Source: a virus. From it: DNA of 31,573 nt. Made by a program: the position numbers and the translations under genes. The first letter of the stretch is position 1. Each line of letters opens with the position of its first letter. Below the pieces are notes generated by a model, which saw nothing but the letters and a program-made list of their open reading frames with translations, had not been told where the DNA came from and did not search any database. Below are positions 5,741-26,608 of the stretch, piece after piece. The stretch is from IMG/VR virus record IMGVR_UViG_3300050821_004891, positions 1 to 31,573 of that record, one strand, 5' to 3'.

Positions 5741-5949
5741 CCTGTCACCAACACAATCAGGAACGTGATGGCCAAGGCCATGGAGAAGCCGCCCCGCACG
5801 TGGTCATTCGCCCACATGCCGAACAGAGCGATACCAACCAGGACAGCTATGGTGGCCGCGCTTAGATGGGGTATGTTGGCCGTGAGGACCGCCCCCATGA
5901 TGATAGCGCCAATGCACATACAGGCAAGCCATTCGTAAATCGGGCTCAT
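5737..5949 (-). CDS. Small membrane protein (70 aa)
   Basis: Two or three hydrophobic segments are visible at about residues 7-24, 32-46 and 55-69, separated by short polar turns (NDHVRGG). The protein is therefore predicted to be integral to the inner membrane. Size and topology would fit a holin, but no endolysin or spanin gene is nearby, and in this accessory operon a superinfection-exclusion or membrane-modifying role is equally possible. It is coupled to its neighbours by ATGA and GTGA overlaps. Confidence 0.65.
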   Translation of the reverse strand: MSPIYEWLACMCIGAIIMGAVLTANIPHLSAATIAVLVGIALFGMWANDHVRGGFSMALAITFLIVLVTG

Positions 5950-6260
5950 GTCAGCTTCCTTATGATGTCGTATTTTTCCGGTGAAACGAGAACGTTGACA
6001 ATTTCAGGGTCCATCCAATTAGTTAGGAACTGCGGGACTCCAGCGTTAGGCCCAAGGAACTCTGCCACCTCTTCAGGACTGCGCAACAAACGTACGTCAG
6101 AGATCTGTACGAGATTTTCGGACAGCAAACCACCGTAGGTGCGCTTGCGCGGCCACCCGCCCCGTGGGGGAAGGAAGATGGACTTGGTTGACAGCTCTTC
6201 AGCCAGGGCGGCGCTGGCCACCGCTCCAACAAAGCCCTTCAGGAAGCCCCTACGGTTCAT
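5946..6260 (-). CDS. Tat-signal protein carrying a capsid-like motif
   Basis: The 104-residue protein starts MNRRGFLKGFVGAVASAALA. RRGFLK is a near-perfect twin-arginine export motif, followed by a hydrophobic stretch and a likely ALA cleavage site near residue 20. The middle contains IFLPPRGGWP. The C-terminal third holds NAGVPQFLTNWMDP (72-85), then LVSPEK. The major capsid protein encoded at 24959-26080 has the matching NAGIPGFLTNWVDP (83-96), then LVAPMK. Over 29 aligned residues 16 are identical, although the codons differ at most synonymous sites. ATG 6260 overlaps the upstream stop and is preferred over GTG 6266. An exported or membrane-associated phage protein seems likely; the reason for the capsid-like segment is unknown. 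Confidence 0.75.
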   Translation of the reverse strand: MNRRGFLKGFVGAVASAALAEELSTKSIFLPPRGGWPRKRTYGGLLSENLVQISDVRLLRSPEEVAEFLGPNAGVPQFLTNWMDPEIVNVLVSPEKYDIIRKLT

Positions 6261-6994
6261 TTGCACAACCTATCCATTTCATCTAACAATTCCATGATTT
6301 CCGTAATCTTGGCCTTGACCACCTTACGCTCATCGGGCGTCAGACGCTTCAATACTCCAGCGTCAACAATCTTTGCGTTGGTCAACATTCTTGTTAATGC
6401 AGTAGATACATTGCGTAAATCATCGGAATAAGTAACTGCTCCCCCACGATATCTGTCGGTTGTTGGAAGTCTGTCCGCCGCCACCTTCAAACTTGAAGTC
6501 TTTTGAACCACCTGATGGACTTTTTGCAAGGGCGCCTTGTAAACCCTCACCATGGCCCGTGTTTCTTCCTCTTTCAAGCCTAGCTTCCTGGCGACTTCCG
6601 TCCTAGGGGATGGTTTGAAATTGCTAAACCCCAGCTTCCCCTTTTTATTTGTGGCTATCGGGATGCTACTGTATTGGCTCAGCAATTCACCACCCTTTCT
6701 CCATGCATCGGCCATCATCTTGTTCGCGTCGCGAACCATCTGCGGTCCAACTTCCTTCATGGTGCGCACAGCCGCCGCTATGGCTTCAGCGCGGTCCCTG
6801 TAGCGCAACAATTGGCTCAGGTCAGTGCATTTCGCAATCGCGTTTCGGGCGTTCATCACCACCGTGGGCAACGTAGCAGCATTGATGCGCGCGTTAGTAA
6901 TCTCGGTGGGCAATGGGCGTTTGATGATCACAGCCGGCAAATTGCTCGGGGTCACGTCAGCCCATTCAGCATCGATCACTGTGTTGTCGGTCAT
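6257..6994 (-). CDS. ParB/KfrA-flavoured DNA-binding-like phage protein (245 aa)
   Basis: A helical core (about residues 45-110) reads LLRYRDRAEAIAAAVRTMK, then MVRDANKMMADAWRKGGELL. This pattern is familiar from plasmid and phage proteins in which a helical region is followed by a recognition segment. The second part, SPRTEVARKLGLKEEETRAM (about 128-147), looks like a helix-turn-helix. The C-terminus is a long charged helix. This suggests DNA binding, perhaps in regulation, but no domain is certain. It is the largest gene of the leftward operon. Confidence 0.6.
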   Translation of the reverse strand: MTDNTVIDAEWADVTPSNLPAVIIKRPLPTEITNARINAATLPTVVMNARNAIAKCTDLSQLLRYRDRAEAIAAAVRTMKEVGPQMVRDANKMMADAWRKGGELLSQYSSIPIATNKKGKLGFSNFKPSPRTEVARKLGLKEEETRAMVRVYKAPLQKVHQVVQKTSSLKVAADRLPTTDRYRGGAVTYSDDLRNVSTALTRMLTNAKIVDAGVLKRLTPDERKVVKAKITEIMELLDEMDRLCK

Positions 6995-10336: not shown

Positions 10337-10812
10337 GGCGTCACCTTAAAGTTGGATAAGTCAGGCATTGCCTGGACGCCAGACCCGTTGCACGTCTCGC
10401 ATTTCAACACAACAGGGATACGCCTGGGGTCAATGGTCTTGCCCTTGCCCTGACAGCCTGAGCACCACATGGGGAATGAGTGGTCCGTGGTCTCAAGGTG
10501 TTGGACGAAGTGCCCTATGCAGCCCTGCAGGTATTGATCGAGCTGGGGTAGGTACTTCTCCGACAACGCCAGTCGCCTGTCAATGGAAAAAGGGATAGAC
10601 CGCGCGATGAAGCGCACGTCTGTCGTCACCCTGGGCTTCGTGAGCGTGGGGTGGAGGCATTCGTTGCACGCGCCACTTCGGGTATAGCGTGGGGCGATGT
10701 GGCCCTTGCGGCATGGCTGACCCGTGAAGTAGTAGCTGGCCCCGCTGGCTATGGCTTCGTCACGGTTGCCAGGAAGATCTTCAACCCTCATGGATGGTTT
10801 TGATGCCCGCAT
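10333..10812 (-). CDS. Two-part zinc protein: phage YFTGxPC module plus DnaJ-like knuckles
   Basis: The 159-residue protein has an N-terminal motif YYFTGQPCRKGHIAPRYTRS followed by GACNEC. The YFTGxPCxxGH pattern is seen in many phage proteins associated with HNH-like zinc folds. Its C-terminal part has CSGCQGKGK and CETCNGSG, two CxxCxGxG knuckles like half of the DnaJ zinc domain. The middle is helical. AAGG lies eight bases before ATG 10812. Apart from a doubtful 25-residue frame it is the first gene of the leftward operon, so probably expressed early. A nucleic-acid- or protein-binding role is likely; catalytic residues are not evident. Confidence 0.65.
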   Translation of the reverse strand: MRASKPSMRVEDLPGNRDEAIASGASYYFTGQPCRKGHIAPRYTRSGACNECLHPTLTKPRVTTDVRFIARSIPFSIDRRLALSEKYLPQLDQYLQGCIGHFVQHLETTDHSFPMWCSGCQGKGKTIDPRRIPVVLKCETCNGSGVQAMPDLSNFKVTP

Positions 10813-10857
10813 ATACTCAACCTTTTTAATTAATAATAGATGGGAATATACTCTACC
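10811..10857. repeat. AT-rich direct repeats upstream of the leftward operon
   Basis: ATATACTCAACC at 10811-10822 and ATATACTCTACC at 10846-10857 differ at one base and start 35 bases apart. They flank an AT-rich stretch that stands out from the GC-rich surroundings. The first copy overlaps the start codon of the leftward operon's 159-residue gene. They could be paired regulator sites or promoter elements. Confidence 0.4.
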
Positions 10858-22149: not shown

Positions 22150-23190
22150 ATGGGCTTCCAGAATCGAGTCAACCTACAGCCGCCCCCGGCCGTCGCTGGC
22201 GACTTCGCGGGAGCCAACCCGCGCATGTCGGTCACGGCACCACCGGGCGGTTACACGGCGGCCCCTGATTATCCGGCCAGCTTTGGTGGCCCGACCACGG
22301 AAGCCCTTATCGTTGGCCGGTTCGCATGGTTCAACTACGCCACGGATGACAGTGTGGTGGATGGCCAGCTTCCGGCCGGTGGACTCGCGTCCAACTATTT
22401 CCAGCCCAACAGTGTCCTGGGCTTCGTTCATCGTGAAGACCAGACTGTCATCACCAAGTTTCTGAGTGAACAGCGCATTGGTGTGCAGCAGGGCTTTCCG
22501 GTTACTGGCATTGTCCAGGGTGACGTGTGGGCTGACTTCTTCGGTCAGACACCAGCGACGGCCGGACAGGTGGTCTATGCAGACCCTGTGACCGGTAAGG
22601 CGTCGGCGGGCGCTCCCGGCCAGGGTGTGACCATCACGGGTGCCACGGGCGCCATTGTGGCGGCCACGGGCGTCATGACCATTGCAGGCTCACCCTCGGG
22701 TACAGTCGCGGTGGGTCAGGTGGTTGTTGGCGCAGGCATCCCCAAGGGGACTTTTATTACCGCGCTGATTTCCAGCACGGGTGGTGCGGGCACGGTCCAG
22801 TTGAATCAGGCCCCCGCCGGCAACATCTCGGCGGAGACCATCACCCTTTACGGCAAACAGCAGACCCGCTGGAAACTCGCGCAGCCTGTCCAGGGCGCCG
22901 CGACCTTCACGGGCCAGTTCCTGGGTGATGGTGCCAGTTCTCCTGGCCCATTCGCCTTTCCTGAGCTGACGGTGACGGGCAGCGTGACCAATGGACCCAT
23001 CCAGGCCGGAATGCTGCTGTCCGGGGCAAATGGTGATATCACGGCGGCCACCATCATTACCGGTCAGGTGTCGGGCACCATCGGCGGAGATGGTGTCTAC
23101 ACCACCAATCTGGCGTACGTCCAGAGTGCCAGCGAGACCATGACCGCGAGTCAGGGCACACTGGGCAAAATTTCCACGTGGCAGGCGTAA
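22150..23190 (+). CDS. Capsid cement/decoration protein, paralogue 1 (two insert modules)
   Basis: The 346-residue protein begins MGFQNRVNLQPPPAVAGDFA and has the core IVGRFAWFN (54-62), GFVHREDQTVITKFL (91-105) and PVTGIVQGDVWADF (117-130). It ends GTLGKISTWQA. These ends and core motifs recur in three more genes nearby and resemble the Gp24-type structural cement family that stabilises capsid surfaces. Two beta-type repeat modules of about 60 residues are inserted at about 172-233 and 272-334. CGGAGCACACCCAC precedes the ATG. Confidence 0.75.
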   Translation: MGFQNRVNLQPPPAVAGDFAGANPRMSVTAPPGGYTAAPDYPASFGGPTTEALIVGRFAWFNYATDDSVVDGQLPAGGLASNYFQPNSVLGFVHREDQTVITKFLSEQRIGVQQGFPVTGIVQGDVWADFFGQTPATAGQVVYADPVTGKASAGAPGQGVTITGATGAIVAATGVMTIAGSPSGTVAVGQVVVGAGIPKGTFITALISSTGGAGTVQLNQAPAGNISAETITLYGKQQTRWKLAQPVQGAATFTGQFLGDGASSPGPFAFPELTVTGSVTNGPIQAGMLLSGANGDITAATIITGQVSGTIGGDGVYTTNLAYVQSASETMTASQGTLGKISTWQA

Positions 23191-23196
23191 AGCACC

Positions 23197-24171
23197 ATGA
23201 CTCAGGTTACCAACAGCGGCTTTCAGTCCATCGTCAACGCCCAGCCGGCTCCGGGACAGGCGGGTGACTTCTACGGCGTGAATATTCGTGCGGTGGTCCT
23301 GGGCTCCAACATTCCGTACGGCACCCCCGGTGCTGGCGGTCAAGGTGCTGTGGGTCAGCTCGTATCGCCCCCTGGCGGTCTGACCGTGGGCAATTTTGCC
23401 TGGGCCGACTTGAACACGGGCGCGGTGTCGCAGGGGTTTGACCCCAACGGTCAGCTTGGCTTCCTTCATCGTGAAGAGCAGGCCATCATTGTCACGTACC
23501 TGGGTATTTCCACGTACGTGGTCAATCAGGGCTTCCCCATCACTCTATTCAGCCAGGGCAGCTTTTGGGCGAAGTTCGCGGGTGGCGCGAGCCCCGGCCA
23601 GAAGGTCTACGCGGACCCGGCCACGGGCGCACCCATCGCGGCCAACACTACGCCTGTCGCGGACAGTCTGACGGGCTCCATTGGCTTCAGCGGCACCGGT
23701 ACTCTGGTGACGGCCACGCCCAACCTGACCATTGCTTCGGTTGTTTCCGGCATCCTGTCTATTGGCGACACGGTGACAGGTACGGATATTCCCGCCAACA
23801 CCACCATCTTGTCGCAGACTTCTGGCACTCCTGGTGGTGTTGGCGTCTATGTGATGAGCGCCAATGCCAGTGGTACCGTATCCAGCGCTGAAGCCATCAC
23901 TTCGACTTCCACGGTGTTGGACGCCACCGCCGTAGCTTCGGGCACCCTGGGCGCCGGTGACGTGTTGAGTGGTTCCGGCATCACCACGGGAACCCAGATT
24001 ACCGGCCAGCTTTCAGGTACGCCCGGTGGTGTGGGTACCTATCGCATCAGTGTGGCCCAGGGGCCGATTGCCGGCGAAGCCGTCACGTCCAATGCCATCC
24101 TGACCAACTTCATTGTCAAGCGTACGTGCGGCGCCGGTGAAGTGGCCGTCATTTCGAGTTGGGGAACTTAA
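23197..24171 (+). CDS. Capsid cement/decoration protein, paralogue 2 (two insert modules)
   Basis: The 324-residue protein shares the frame of its neighbours: SIVNAQPAPGQAGDF near the start, GLTVGNFAWADLNTG (61-75), GFLHREEQAIIVTYL (88-102), GFPITLFSQGSFWAKFAGGA (112-131), GQKVYADP and the C-terminal GAGEVAVISSWG. Two clear repeats of the form LTIASVVSGILSIGDTVTGT, then QTSGTPGGVGVY, occupy about 177-237 and 241-299. Such modules are widespread in phage surface proteins. It probably decorates the capsid exterior. Confidence 0.75.
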   Translation: MTQVTNSGFQSIVNAQPAPGQAGDFYGVNIRAVVLGSNIPYGTPGAGGQGAVGQLVSPPGGLTVGNFAWADLNTGAVSQGFDPNGQLGFLHREEQAIIVTYLGISTYVVNQGFPITLFSQGSFWAKFAGGASPGQKVYADPATGAPIAANTTPVADSLTGSIGFSGTGTLVTATPNLTIASVVSGILSIGDTVTGTDIPANTTILSQTSGTPGGVGVYVMSANASGTVSSAEAITSTSTVLDATAVASGTLGAGDVLSGSGITTGTQITGQLSGTPGGVGTYRISVAQGPIAGEAVTSNAILTNFIVKRTCGAGEVAVISSWGT

Positions 24172-24174
24172 ACC

Positions 24175-24954
24175 ATGGGCTTTCAGACTCAAGTCAACAT
24201 CCAGCCGGGCGTTGGTCAAGCAGGCGATTTCGCCAGCGCTAACCTGCGCACCGTTGTGGAAGCGGGACCGGGTGGCTTCATTGCCGCTGCCCCGCCGCGT
24301 TCCCCCATCGTTGGCAACTTTGCCTGGGGTAATCAAAACCCGGCCTTGGTTGACTTCAGCAACATGACTGTGCATGGAAATCCCGGTACGGGCGTGGCCG
24401 AAGGCATGCAGGCTGTTGGCAGCTACCAGGGTGAAACCGGTGTGGAAATTGGCTTTGTGCATCGCGAAGCTGAAATTCCCATGTACCAGTATCTGGCTCC
24501 CACCACCTACGCCTATGTCGTGGGCCAGATTATCACCCTGTACAACAACGGTGACTTCTGGGCGCTCTTTGCAGCCGGCGCCACCGTGGGCCAGAAAGTG
24601 TTTGCCAACTACAAGGATGGCTCGGCATATGCGGCGGCCACCGGTACGTCCACGCAGACCGCCACCAGTTCTTCATCGTCCCTGGCCAATACGGGCGTGT
24701 TGACTGTTGGGGGCACCTTCACAGGCAGCGTGAACGTTGGTGACGTGTGGACTGACACAGCCAGCGGTCAAGCGTTTGCCATCCTCCAACAGCTTTCGGG
24801 TACGGCGAACGGCGCCGGTACGTATCAAACCAGTCTCGTAGGCGTCACGATTTCCGCGACAGCTTTCACGGCGGCTGGTAGTGTAGAGACTGCGTTCTTT
24901 GTTGACTCACCGGCTGCGGCTGGCGAGCTTGCGAAAATCACCACCTGGGGATAA
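24175..24954 (+). CDS. Capsid cement/decoration protein, paralogue 3 (one insert module)
   Basis: The 259-residue protein begins MGFQTQVNIQPGVGQAGDFA, nearly matching paralogue 1, followed by IVGNFAWGN, GFVHREAEIPMYQYL, VGQIITLYNNGDFWALFAAG and GQKVFANYKDG. It ends AAGELAKITTWG. Only one repeat module is inserted (about 175-238, including LTVGGTFTGSVNVGDVWTD). The short spacing to the previous gene and the match of the ends point to tandem duplication followed by divergence. Confidence 0.75.
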   Translation: MGFQTQVNIQPGVGQAGDFASANLRTVVEAGPGGFIAAAPPRSPIVGNFAWGNQNPALVDFSNMTVHGNPGTGVAEGMQAVGSYQGETGVEIGFVHREAEIPMYQYLAPTTYAYVVGQIITLYNNGDFWALFAAGATVGQKVFANYKDGSAYAAATGTSTQTATSSSSSLANTGVLTVGGTFTGSVNVGDVWTDTASGQAFAILQQLSGTANGAGTYQTSLVGVTISATAFTAAGSVETAFFVDSPAAAGELAKITTWG

Positions 24955-24958
24955 ACCA

Positions 24959-26080
24959 ATGCGCGTTGTATTTGACCAAAAAGCGTTCCATGCGGCTATG
25001 AAGGCCGGGCACGGCGCCGCGATTCTTGCGCGCGCTGCGGAAAGACGGGGCCTTCATTTCCATGATCGTAGCATGGAGGAACTGGCCGTCACCGCGCTTC
25101 GCGTTGCGGCTCGTGATTCCATCGAGATCACTGACCCTGATACCGGCAAGGTGACCCGCGAATGGGGTGCGTTTGACGCGCAACCTGAGCTGGTGACGGT
25201 CGCGAACGCCGGCATTCCTGGCTTCCTCACCAACTGGGTTGATCCCAAGTTGATTGAGGCGTTGGTCGCGCCAATGAAGGCCGCCCAGATTTACGGGGAA
25301 GAGAAGAAAGGTGACTGGACCACGGAGGACATTTATTTCTCCGTGATCGAGTCACAGGGTGAGGTTTCCAGCTATGGCGATTTCAGCGCCAACGGCAGTG
25401 TGGAAATCAACGCGAACTTCCCGCAGCGTCAGTGCTACCACTACCAGACTTTCACCCAGTGGGGTGAGCGGGAAATGGCGAAGGCAGCTCTGGCCAAGAT
25501 CGATCAGGCCAGCCGGCTGAACATCGCCAGCGTCCTGTTGCTCAATAAGTTCCAGAACGCCAGCTACTTCTTCGGCATCAGCGGGTTGCAGATTTATGGC
25601 GGCCTGAATGACCCCACGCTGTATGCGCCGATCGCGGCCACCAGCCCCTGGAGCCAGTCTGGCACGACCAGCGCCATCATCTACGACGACATCCGCCGTC
25701 TGTTCCAACAGATCCAGGCCCAGGCCAACGGCTTGGTGTCGCAGGATATGCGCATGGTCCTGGCGATGAGCCCGACTCAGGAAGTGAATCTGGCCAAAAC
25801 GAACGAGTTCAACGTCAACGTTCATGACCAGCTCAAGAAGAATTTCCCGGCCATCCGCATTGTGTCGGCTCCGGAATTCTCCACCCAGTCGGGTGAGCTG
25901 GTGCAGTTGATCGTTGAAGAGTTGGAAGGTCAGGAGACCACCACCTGTAGCTTCACGGAGAAGCTGCGGGCTCACGCGGTGGTGCAGGATACTTCGAGCT
26001 GGAAACAGAAGAAGAGCCAGGGCACCAGCGGCACTGTCGTCTTCCGCAGCTTCCTGATTGGTCAGATGACCGTTTCGTAA
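24959..26080 (+). CDS. Major capsid protein (DUF2184-like)
   Basis: The 373-residue protein is the expected main shell subunit. Characteristic blocks include NAGIPGFLTNWVDP (83-96), GEEKKGDWTTEDIYFSVIES (113-132), GEVSSYGDFSANG (134-146), FPQRQCYHYQTFTQWGERE (153-171), LNIASVLLLNKFQNASYFFG (183-202) and SGLQIYGGLNDP. These match DUF2184 capsid proteins of HK97-like folds. ATG 24959 follows GGGGATAAACC. It sits among cement paralogues; residues 83-111 are echoed in the Tat-signal protein at 5946-6260. Confidence 0.88.
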   Translation: MRVVFDQKAFHAAMKAGHGAAILARAAERRGLHFHDRSMEELAVTALRVAARDSIEITDPDTGKVTREWGAFDAQPELVTVANAGIPGFLTNWVDPKLIEALVAPMKAAQIYGEEKKGDWTTEDIYFSVIESQGEVSSYGDFSANGSVEINANFPQRQCYHYQTFTQWGEREMAKAALAKIDQASRLNIASVLLLNKFQNASYFFGISGLQIYGGLNDPTLYAPIAATSPWSQSGTTSAIIYDDIRRLFQQIQAQANGLVSQDMRMVLAMSPTQEVNLAKTNEFNVNVHDQLKKNFPAIRIVSAPEFSTQSGELVQLIVEELEGQETTTCSFTEKLRAHAVVQDTSSWKQKKSQGTSGTVVFRSFLIGQMTVS

Positions 26081-26089
26081 TGTGACACT

Positions 26090-26608
26090 GTGGGCGCCTT
26101 CTATCGCAATTCCCACGCGGTGGAAGGCGCCTTCGCTTCATACAACCCCCGCTTTCAGATCCTTGCTGGCCAGGGCGCTCTAGTTGCGAATCCAGCCGGT
26201 GTAGCCATTGGCCGCTTCGCCTGGGCTGATTTGACGGCCGGGCTTGTCTATTCCGCCCAACAGCATGCGACGGATGTTCTGGGCTTCGTATATCGTCCCT
26301 CTTTGGATAATCAATACTGGCCGACATACGATTGGCGTCGGACTTACTGGGATCGCACCCAGCGGGCCTGGATTTCTAGGGGCGGCTTTGAGCTGACCCT
26401 TGCACGACGCGGGGACTTCTGGGCGCGATTCCTGGGTGGGGCTTATATCGGGCAGGACGTTTATGCTAACGTTCTGGACGGCTCCTGTGCCGCTTTTAAT
26501 CGTGGTACCGGCCCGGTAACTGGGTACGTTCAGACTCCGTGGCAAACGGTCAGCGAAAGCGCTCCAGGGGAATTATCTATAATTTCAAGTTGGAGTTTCT
26601 TCTCATGA
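26090..26608 (+). CDS. Capsid cement/decoration protein, paralogue 4 (no insert)
   Basis: The 172-residue protein retains only the shared core: AFASYNPRFQILAGQGALVA, AIGRFAWADLTAG, LGFVYRP, then RRGDFWARFLGGAYIGQDVY and the C-terminal PGELSIISSWSF. It carries an unusual Trp/Tyr/Arg-rich stretch (YWPTYDWRRTYWDRTQRAWI) in place of the usual REEQ helix, and no repeat module. It begins with GTG nine bases after the capsid stop and has no Shine-Dalgarno, so expression may be low or coupled. Confidence 0.65.
   Translation: MGAFYRNSHAVEGAFASYNPRFQILAGQGALVANPAGVAIGRFAWADLTAGLVYSAQQHATDVLGFVYRPSLDNQYWPTYDWRRTYWDRTQRAWISRGGFELTLARRGDFWARFLGGAYIGQDVYANVLDGSCAAFNRGTGPVTGYVQTPWQTVSESAPGELSIISSWSFFS

Follow-up and report, generated by a model that had tools for sequence, protein, structure and literature searches.

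A small gene in a 31,573-nt stretch of viral DNA (IMG/VR record IMGVR_UViG_3300050821_004891, positions 1 to 31,573; hereafter the window) encodes a protein, P0002, that sequence comparison assigns to a family of small phage proteins. Its members combine a twin-arginine type signal and, in most cases, the motif FLPPxGGW with a tail that varies. By the same comparisons, this tail is in many members a piece of a coat protein, of the family to which the phage's own coat belongs. We regard this descriptive core, in which signal and motif precede a variable tail that often appears to be a coat piece kept at the protein level, as very nearly certain. In the open-access literature searched (subscription papers lay outside it), we found no phage protein described in which a signal peptide is joined to part of the coat of the same phage.

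P0002 and the capsid of its phage

The original prediction had drawn attention to 5946-6260, and what it described there is real, with one correction: the coding strand is the minus strand (6260..5946), and the plus strand in this interval is interrupted by stops. The product, MNRRGFLKGFVGAVASAALAEELSTKSIFLPPRGGWPRKRTYGGLLSENLVQISDVRLLRSPEEVAEFLGPNAGVPQFLTNWMDPEIVNVLVSPEKYDIIRKLT, has MNRRGFLK at its very start. The ATGA overlaps with both the preceding and the following gene (Table 1) make P0002 look like a real gene and place it in a compact operon.

Table 1 Positions in the window of P0002, its parts, its neighbours and the capsid gene
Feature	Position	Strand	Basis or remark
P0002, 104-aa twin-arginine/coat-segment protein	5946..6260	minus	ORF; ATGA overlaps on both sides
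P0002 twin-arginine type signal, residues 1-23, MNRRGFLKGFVGAVASAALAEEL	6192..6260	minus	PF10518 E 0.0037, under the curated cut-off
P0002 platform motif FLPPRGGW, residues 29-36	6153..6176	minus	Conserved family-wide
P0002 coat-like segment, residues 72-96, NAGVPQFLTNWMDPEIVNVLVSPEK	5973..6047	minus	BLASTP, shuffles
P0002 possible longer coat-like region, residues 52-96	5973..6107	minus	51% identity to L183 coat, 45 columns
Upstream gene, 245 aa, same strand as P0002, ATGA overlap	6257..6994	minus	
Downstream gene, 70-aa predicted membrane protein, ATGA overlap with P0002	5737..5949	minus	
Major capsid protein, phrog_264, HK97-fold relatives in E217 and Pa193	24959..26080	plus	
Capsid N-arm segment matching P0002, residues 83-107, NAGIPGFLTNWVDPKLIEALVAPMK	25205..25279	plus	

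The predicted twin-arginine signal (RRGFLK) is present by motif only. NRRGFLK at residues 2-8 follows the pattern (S/T)RRxFLK, with N replacing S/T, and the scores stay under the curated cut-offs of both Pfam (TAT_signal, 17.6 bits vs 22.7) and NCBIfam (TIGR01409, 13.3 bits vs 16.7). Among eight family members, four matched the Pfam signal model and five the NCBIfam model at E ≤ 0.05. P0002 shares with Tat signal-bearing proteins (PF10518, TIGR01409) the RRxFLK motif, a short hydrophobic stretch and an alanine-rich end, but it differs from them in its sub-cut-off scores, in carrying no known cofactor-binding or enzymatic domain, and in being phage-encoded with a coat piece for a tail. The signal would bring proteins of this type to, or across, the inner membrane. 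A member-like ORF near position 4785 of contig L145 (IMGVR_UViG_3300009500_000096) has RP for RR (VNRPGFIAML...RSIFLPPLGGW), a natural variant in which Tat targeting may be lost.

The capsid-like C-terminal segment was borne out. Pairwise BLASTP aligned residues 72-96 of P0002, and no more of the protein, with residues 83-107 of the phage's own capsid (15/25 identical, E 3e-10), and with the module shuffled 5,000 times the best score was 58, against the 95 observed. The tail also matched its own coat at E 7e-9 when own coats were compared with short ORFs, and a search of the contig with P0002 returned only P0002 itself and the capsid gene. Elsewhere, capsids of the Acinetobacter AP22 type matched residues 70-96 (E 6e-5; tblastn, 50,697 phage records). 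P0002 had no capsid match in Pfam or PHROGs and no full-length HK97-fold domain, and no PDB match to its coat-like segment was significant. The significant database matches to the segment were all capsids, so that the motif is not generic. As had been noted, synonymous positions mostly differ: the same codon is used at 2 of the 14 identical residues with degenerate codons, where codon usage leads one to expect 5.5.

The solved relatives of this capsid are those of the Pseudomonas phages E217 and Pa193. Since the aligned stretch begins near residue 16 of the E217 chain, the matching segment lies in the N-terminal arm of the capsid. This placement was made by PDB sequence alignment, the predicted capsid model being poor in the N-arm; an AlphaFold model of P0002 alone was uninformative (mean pLDDT 39.5). 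P0002 shares a 25-residue stretch of the N-arm, at 60% identity to the phage's own capsid, with the phrog_264 kind of capsid (this phage; relatives E217, Pa193 and AP22), but it is a protein of 104 residues in which the short segment comes without an HK97-fold core and after a twin-arginine signal and FLPPxGGW. The idea that it specifically copies the capsid of its own phage is not supported in that form, because related capsids are as close or closer: identity to the segment is 68% for the L181 capsid and 64% for those of L182 and L190, against 60% for the phage's own.

A family with coat pieces for tails

Proteins with the same start, in which a twin-arginine signal precedes FLPPxGGW, are encoded in about 50 phage contigs. 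They have an RRxFL motif and, after a short stretch of hydrophobic residues, FLPPxGGW, while the tails differ between unrelated viral contigs. Members were gathered by a search with the signal part and by two DNA patterns that specify the FLPPxGGW region only; most in-frame ORFs found by these patterns also had the twin arginines. In this way 52 non-redundant members were collected, and the whole contig, in many cases a fragment, was fetched for most of them. P0002 has the RR signal and an FLPPxGGW-like motif, and it scored E 2.6e-18 against a 14-row family profile in which it is itself included. Narrow queries, with which prophages could be missed, returned only ordinary Tat proteins from 84,980 genomes and nothing from 398 Pseudomonadota genomes.

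Tails were compared with all six-frame ORFs of their own and of other contigs at a threshold of E ≤ 1e-4. Matches to the own contig were obtained for 14 of the 52 tails, as opposed to 13 of 1,530 pairings with other contigs. Where a coat was identified, 14 of 31 tails matched it, compared with 1 of 7,315 other short ORFs from the same contigs (Fisher P ~ 3e-34); the former fraction is somewhat generous, since some coats were recognized through the tail match, a bias from which 14/52 is free. Because members were collected by motif, the fraction of coat-like tails is not a population estimate. The single matching control ORF (contig G025, 3-308), truncated where the contig ends, adjoins a row of three members and may be a fourth. 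Among eight members scanned against PHROGs, one matched a major head protein (phrog_283, E 1.7e-6).

With segments of only 15-60 residues, chance similarity or a generic motif common to unrelated proteins might be suspected. We regard this as extremely improbable, given the E value and shuffles for P0002, the capsid identity of the significant database matches to its segment, and the ratio of 14/31 to 1/7,315. For the 14 strong tail-coat pairs, chance is already refuted.

Two isolated phages carry the gene. Tunturi_1 and Tunturi_2 infect Tunturiibacter, an acidobacterium (PMC11924767), and their gp97 and gp99 are family members. In Tunturi_2, where gp8 is annotated as the major head protein, the gp99 tail aligns with gp8 residues 5-56 (21/52 identical, E 1e-7). 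Tunturi_2, which is counted among the 14 own-coat matches, was not used in finding the pattern and is therefore an independent test of it. No relatives of gp99 were found in viral contigs. The predicted resemblance of a signal-bearing protein to the phage's own capsid is thus supported beyond the window, recurring with other capsid families and in isolated phages. In the original prediction, absence of the motif from homologues of P0002 was to count against a mimic. The outcome was unexpected: homologues of the signal part are without it, but many carry a different own-coat piece instead.

At least six coat families are involved. The tails target coats of phrog_264 (this phage and G002), of phrog_283 or the P22 type (G010, G020, G024, G025 and G031), of phrog_9953 (Tunturi_2, G011, G013 and G441) and of phrog_1357 (G028), an SU10-type capsid (G014) and a coat with no assigned family (G032). 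PF17236 is among the head-protein families targeted, and weaker matches include a phrog_371 coat (G027) and others. A further P22-type case, which came up only in the search that started from the coats, is contig L261 (IMGVR_UViG_3300046516_001361), where the tail of a member at 1711 matches the coat N-terminus with 27 identical residues in 58 columns (E 9e-14).

The pieces come from different regions of the coat. N-terminal arm pieces are found in this phage, G010, G011, G013, G014, G031, G441 and Tunturi_2, C-terminal strand pieces in G020, G024 and G025 (more weakly in G027 and L142), and central pieces in G002, G028 and G032 (more weakly in G001). Some phages have more than one: G011 has coat residues 16-61 and, weakly, 148-168; G025 has 422-469, plus 311-348 in a truncated neighbour; and G027 has 289-303, weakly, plus 135-181 in a neighbouring gene. 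This neighbour in G027 (IMGVR_UViG_3300021170_000017, near 9.4 kb) is a short ORF without twin arginines that adjoins the Tat gene (E 1.7e-6 to the coat), and coat-piece proteins may thus extend beyond those that carry a Tat signal. In G010 (IMGVR_UViG_3300037518_000144), a second twin-arginine protein without FLPPxGGW is encoded downstream of the portal-position gene (10425-10817, minus strand); it holds VRHVFAYDMGRYMHRFDILIG, which by eye is like a coat C-terminal strand and by BLAST is not significant.

For roughly half of the tails, no match to a coat was obtained. Seven members (G008, G009, G022, G026, G440, L143 and L147) have in common the module IIPxSDxxxWxEELAAGRxxYDxxTExMSLWE after FLPPxGGW, and a profile built from this module matched no other ORF in the member contigs. 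The motif LWVIGERSTELW in the tail of G018/L032 (IMGVR_UViG_3300025928_000141) matches ORFs of 534 and 637 aa in two other phages, perhaps a P22 gp10-like protein, and tails may therefore copy virion proteins other than the coat.

Age, distribution and gene context

Across 18 tail-coat pairs, the same codon was used at 125 of the 306 identical residues with degenerate codons, where codon usage predicts 119.9 (P 0.56). Since the agreement is no better than codon usage provides, the resemblance is old and held at the protein level, which extends to the family the protein-level constraint, as opposed to recent copying, that had been proposed for P0002. Saturation of the synonymous sites also rules out recent copying and assembly error, and an assembly artefact was rejected on this ground. 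Judged by these codons, the amino-acid resemblance is maintained by selection after the synonymous sites were randomized.

The same result bears on the possibility that the tails are functionless captured fragments, a mobile signal segment having been fused repeatedly to pieces of phage genes, with the highly expressed coat genes sampled most. The tails are indeed modular, tandem copies occur, some tails resemble non-coat proteins (G018) and many have no match. However, codon identity at chance implies old fusions whose amino-acid sequence has been kept, and the frame is open in every member, so that we consider this explanation very unlikely. The gp97 and gp99 proteins of Tunturi_1 and Tunturi_2 differ by one residue, which also speaks against it but carries little weight, the two phages being too close.

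Close tracking of the own coat by the tail is a further claim, which the codon result does not establish. The own coat ranked first in 11 of 14 cases within small coat sets, and for only some tails against 86 P22-type coats.

The gene is accessory: among loci that have a related P22-type coat and whose upstream sequence extends for 4.3 kb or more, it was present at four of 45 and absent from 41, in a survey that would miss copies farther away. A search of 23 contigs whose coats are related to that of this phage returned no family member; several of these contigs are short, and an empty result obtained without a positive control carries little weight. A scaffold or portal factor that the phages cannot do without would hardly be so unevenly distributed. 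As an aid to assembly, the protein would be anchored at the inner membrane by its signal, and its coat piece would dock in the coat lattice or the portal-scaffold complex, so that procapsids start, or are checked, at the membrane. The gene does lie in the head cluster of several phages, where the order, with roles taken from order and sequence, is terminase, small hydrophobic protein, Tat gene, portal, scaffold and coat in L142, portal, Tat gene, scaffold and coat in G032, and terminase, Tat gene and portal in G010; moreover, 24 of 31 Tat genes share a strand with the coat gene. A constant small-membrane-protein neighbour was looked for beside the family genes and not found. On the other side stand the absences from the P22-like loci and from the 23 contigs, the origin of the pieces in different coat regions, which offers no single docking surface, and the situation in the window, where the P0002 and capsid genes are on opposite strands, 19 kb apart, with P0002 well away from the head genes. 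On balance, a part in assembly seems rather unlikely.

A possible decoy for coat-binding factors

A coat piece can, in principle, bind either the coat itself or a factor that binds the coat. Directed at the coat, it might poison the assembly of related coinfecting phages, or the exported product might hinder their entry. The accessory, variable nature of the gene would suit such a role, as would the equal or better matches of some tails to related coats (the window, L261, G024 and G031). However, a fragment that poisons relatives should harm the phage's own coat too. Periplasmic fragments would not meet cytoplasmic coat, and coat protein is not known to enter the periplasm on infection. We therefore think interference with competitors improbable. 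P0002 had no match to a known anti-defence or superinfection-exclusion family among its Pfam, PHROGs and NCBIfam matches.

Over both assembly and interference, we tentatively prefer a decoy role, in which the protein is directed to the membrane and occupies a coat-binding factor; this reading is plausible while falling short of probable. The signal would take the coat-piece protein to, or through, the inner membrane, with the piece acting as bait for a factor that otherwise binds the coat. This factor would most likely be a host sensor that recognizes coat and triggers immunity, or possibly a satellite factor that hijacks the coat, and it would be kept at the membrane or carried out by Tat hitchhiking. 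The different pieces across phages, and the several within one phage, would correspond to different coat-binding partners. An uneven distribution and a diversity of pieces, with several in some phages, are more suggestive of conflict than of a central component of assembly. P0002 also need not be produced together with the capsid of its phage, given the opposite strands and the 19 kb between the two genes.

Recognition of coat by host immunity has precedents. Thoeris binding to the major head protein, activation of CapRel by a major head protein, and a T4 gp23 peptide sufficient to activate the Lit protease are described in PMC11312562, the works cited there and PMC9712102. As proposed here, a short coat peptide (Lit) or the coat protein is recognized by a host immune protein; there, however, the coat itself is the trigger, whereas the coat piece considered here has a gene of its own. 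The coat sensors known so far are cytoplasmic, so that an exported decoy would be odd unless it is retained at the membrane or drags its partners out. Export by Tat of partners without a signal of their own is described in PMC10924467.

Several findings weigh against a decoy: the half of the tails without a coat match, one of which resembles another phage protein (G018), the recurrent tail module that has no explanation, the position inside the head cluster in many phages, which fits an assembly role too, and segments that are not always nearest to the own coat. Capsid-derived proteins of another kind are Fv1 and enJSRV Gag, host-captured capsid fragments that restrict viruses. Like the coat pieces, they are encoded by a separate gene and kept by selection, but they are host genes acting against viruses, whereas the present genes are in phage genomes and combine short segments with a signal.

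The occurrence of the pattern across at least six coat families suggests that it answers a recurring need. A bolder and more doubtful proposal is that phages of many coat lineages have separately evolved membrane-targeted decoys, built from pieces of their own coat, that bind or remove host coat-sensing factors. If so, the pieces would be a record of the coat regions that hosts recognize. If the tails are bait, they would mark regions bound by hosts (or satellites) and could be used to fish out new coat sensors. The decoy reading is directly testable, since the gene is present in two isolated phages, Tunturi_1 and Tunturi_2.

Around the capsid gene of the window, three neighbouring genes on the plus strand (22150-24954) have a similar start, GFQxxVNxxPxxxxAGDF, and a fourth related-looking gene follows the capsid gene (26090-26608, plus strand). 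These look like repeated decoration or cement proteins.
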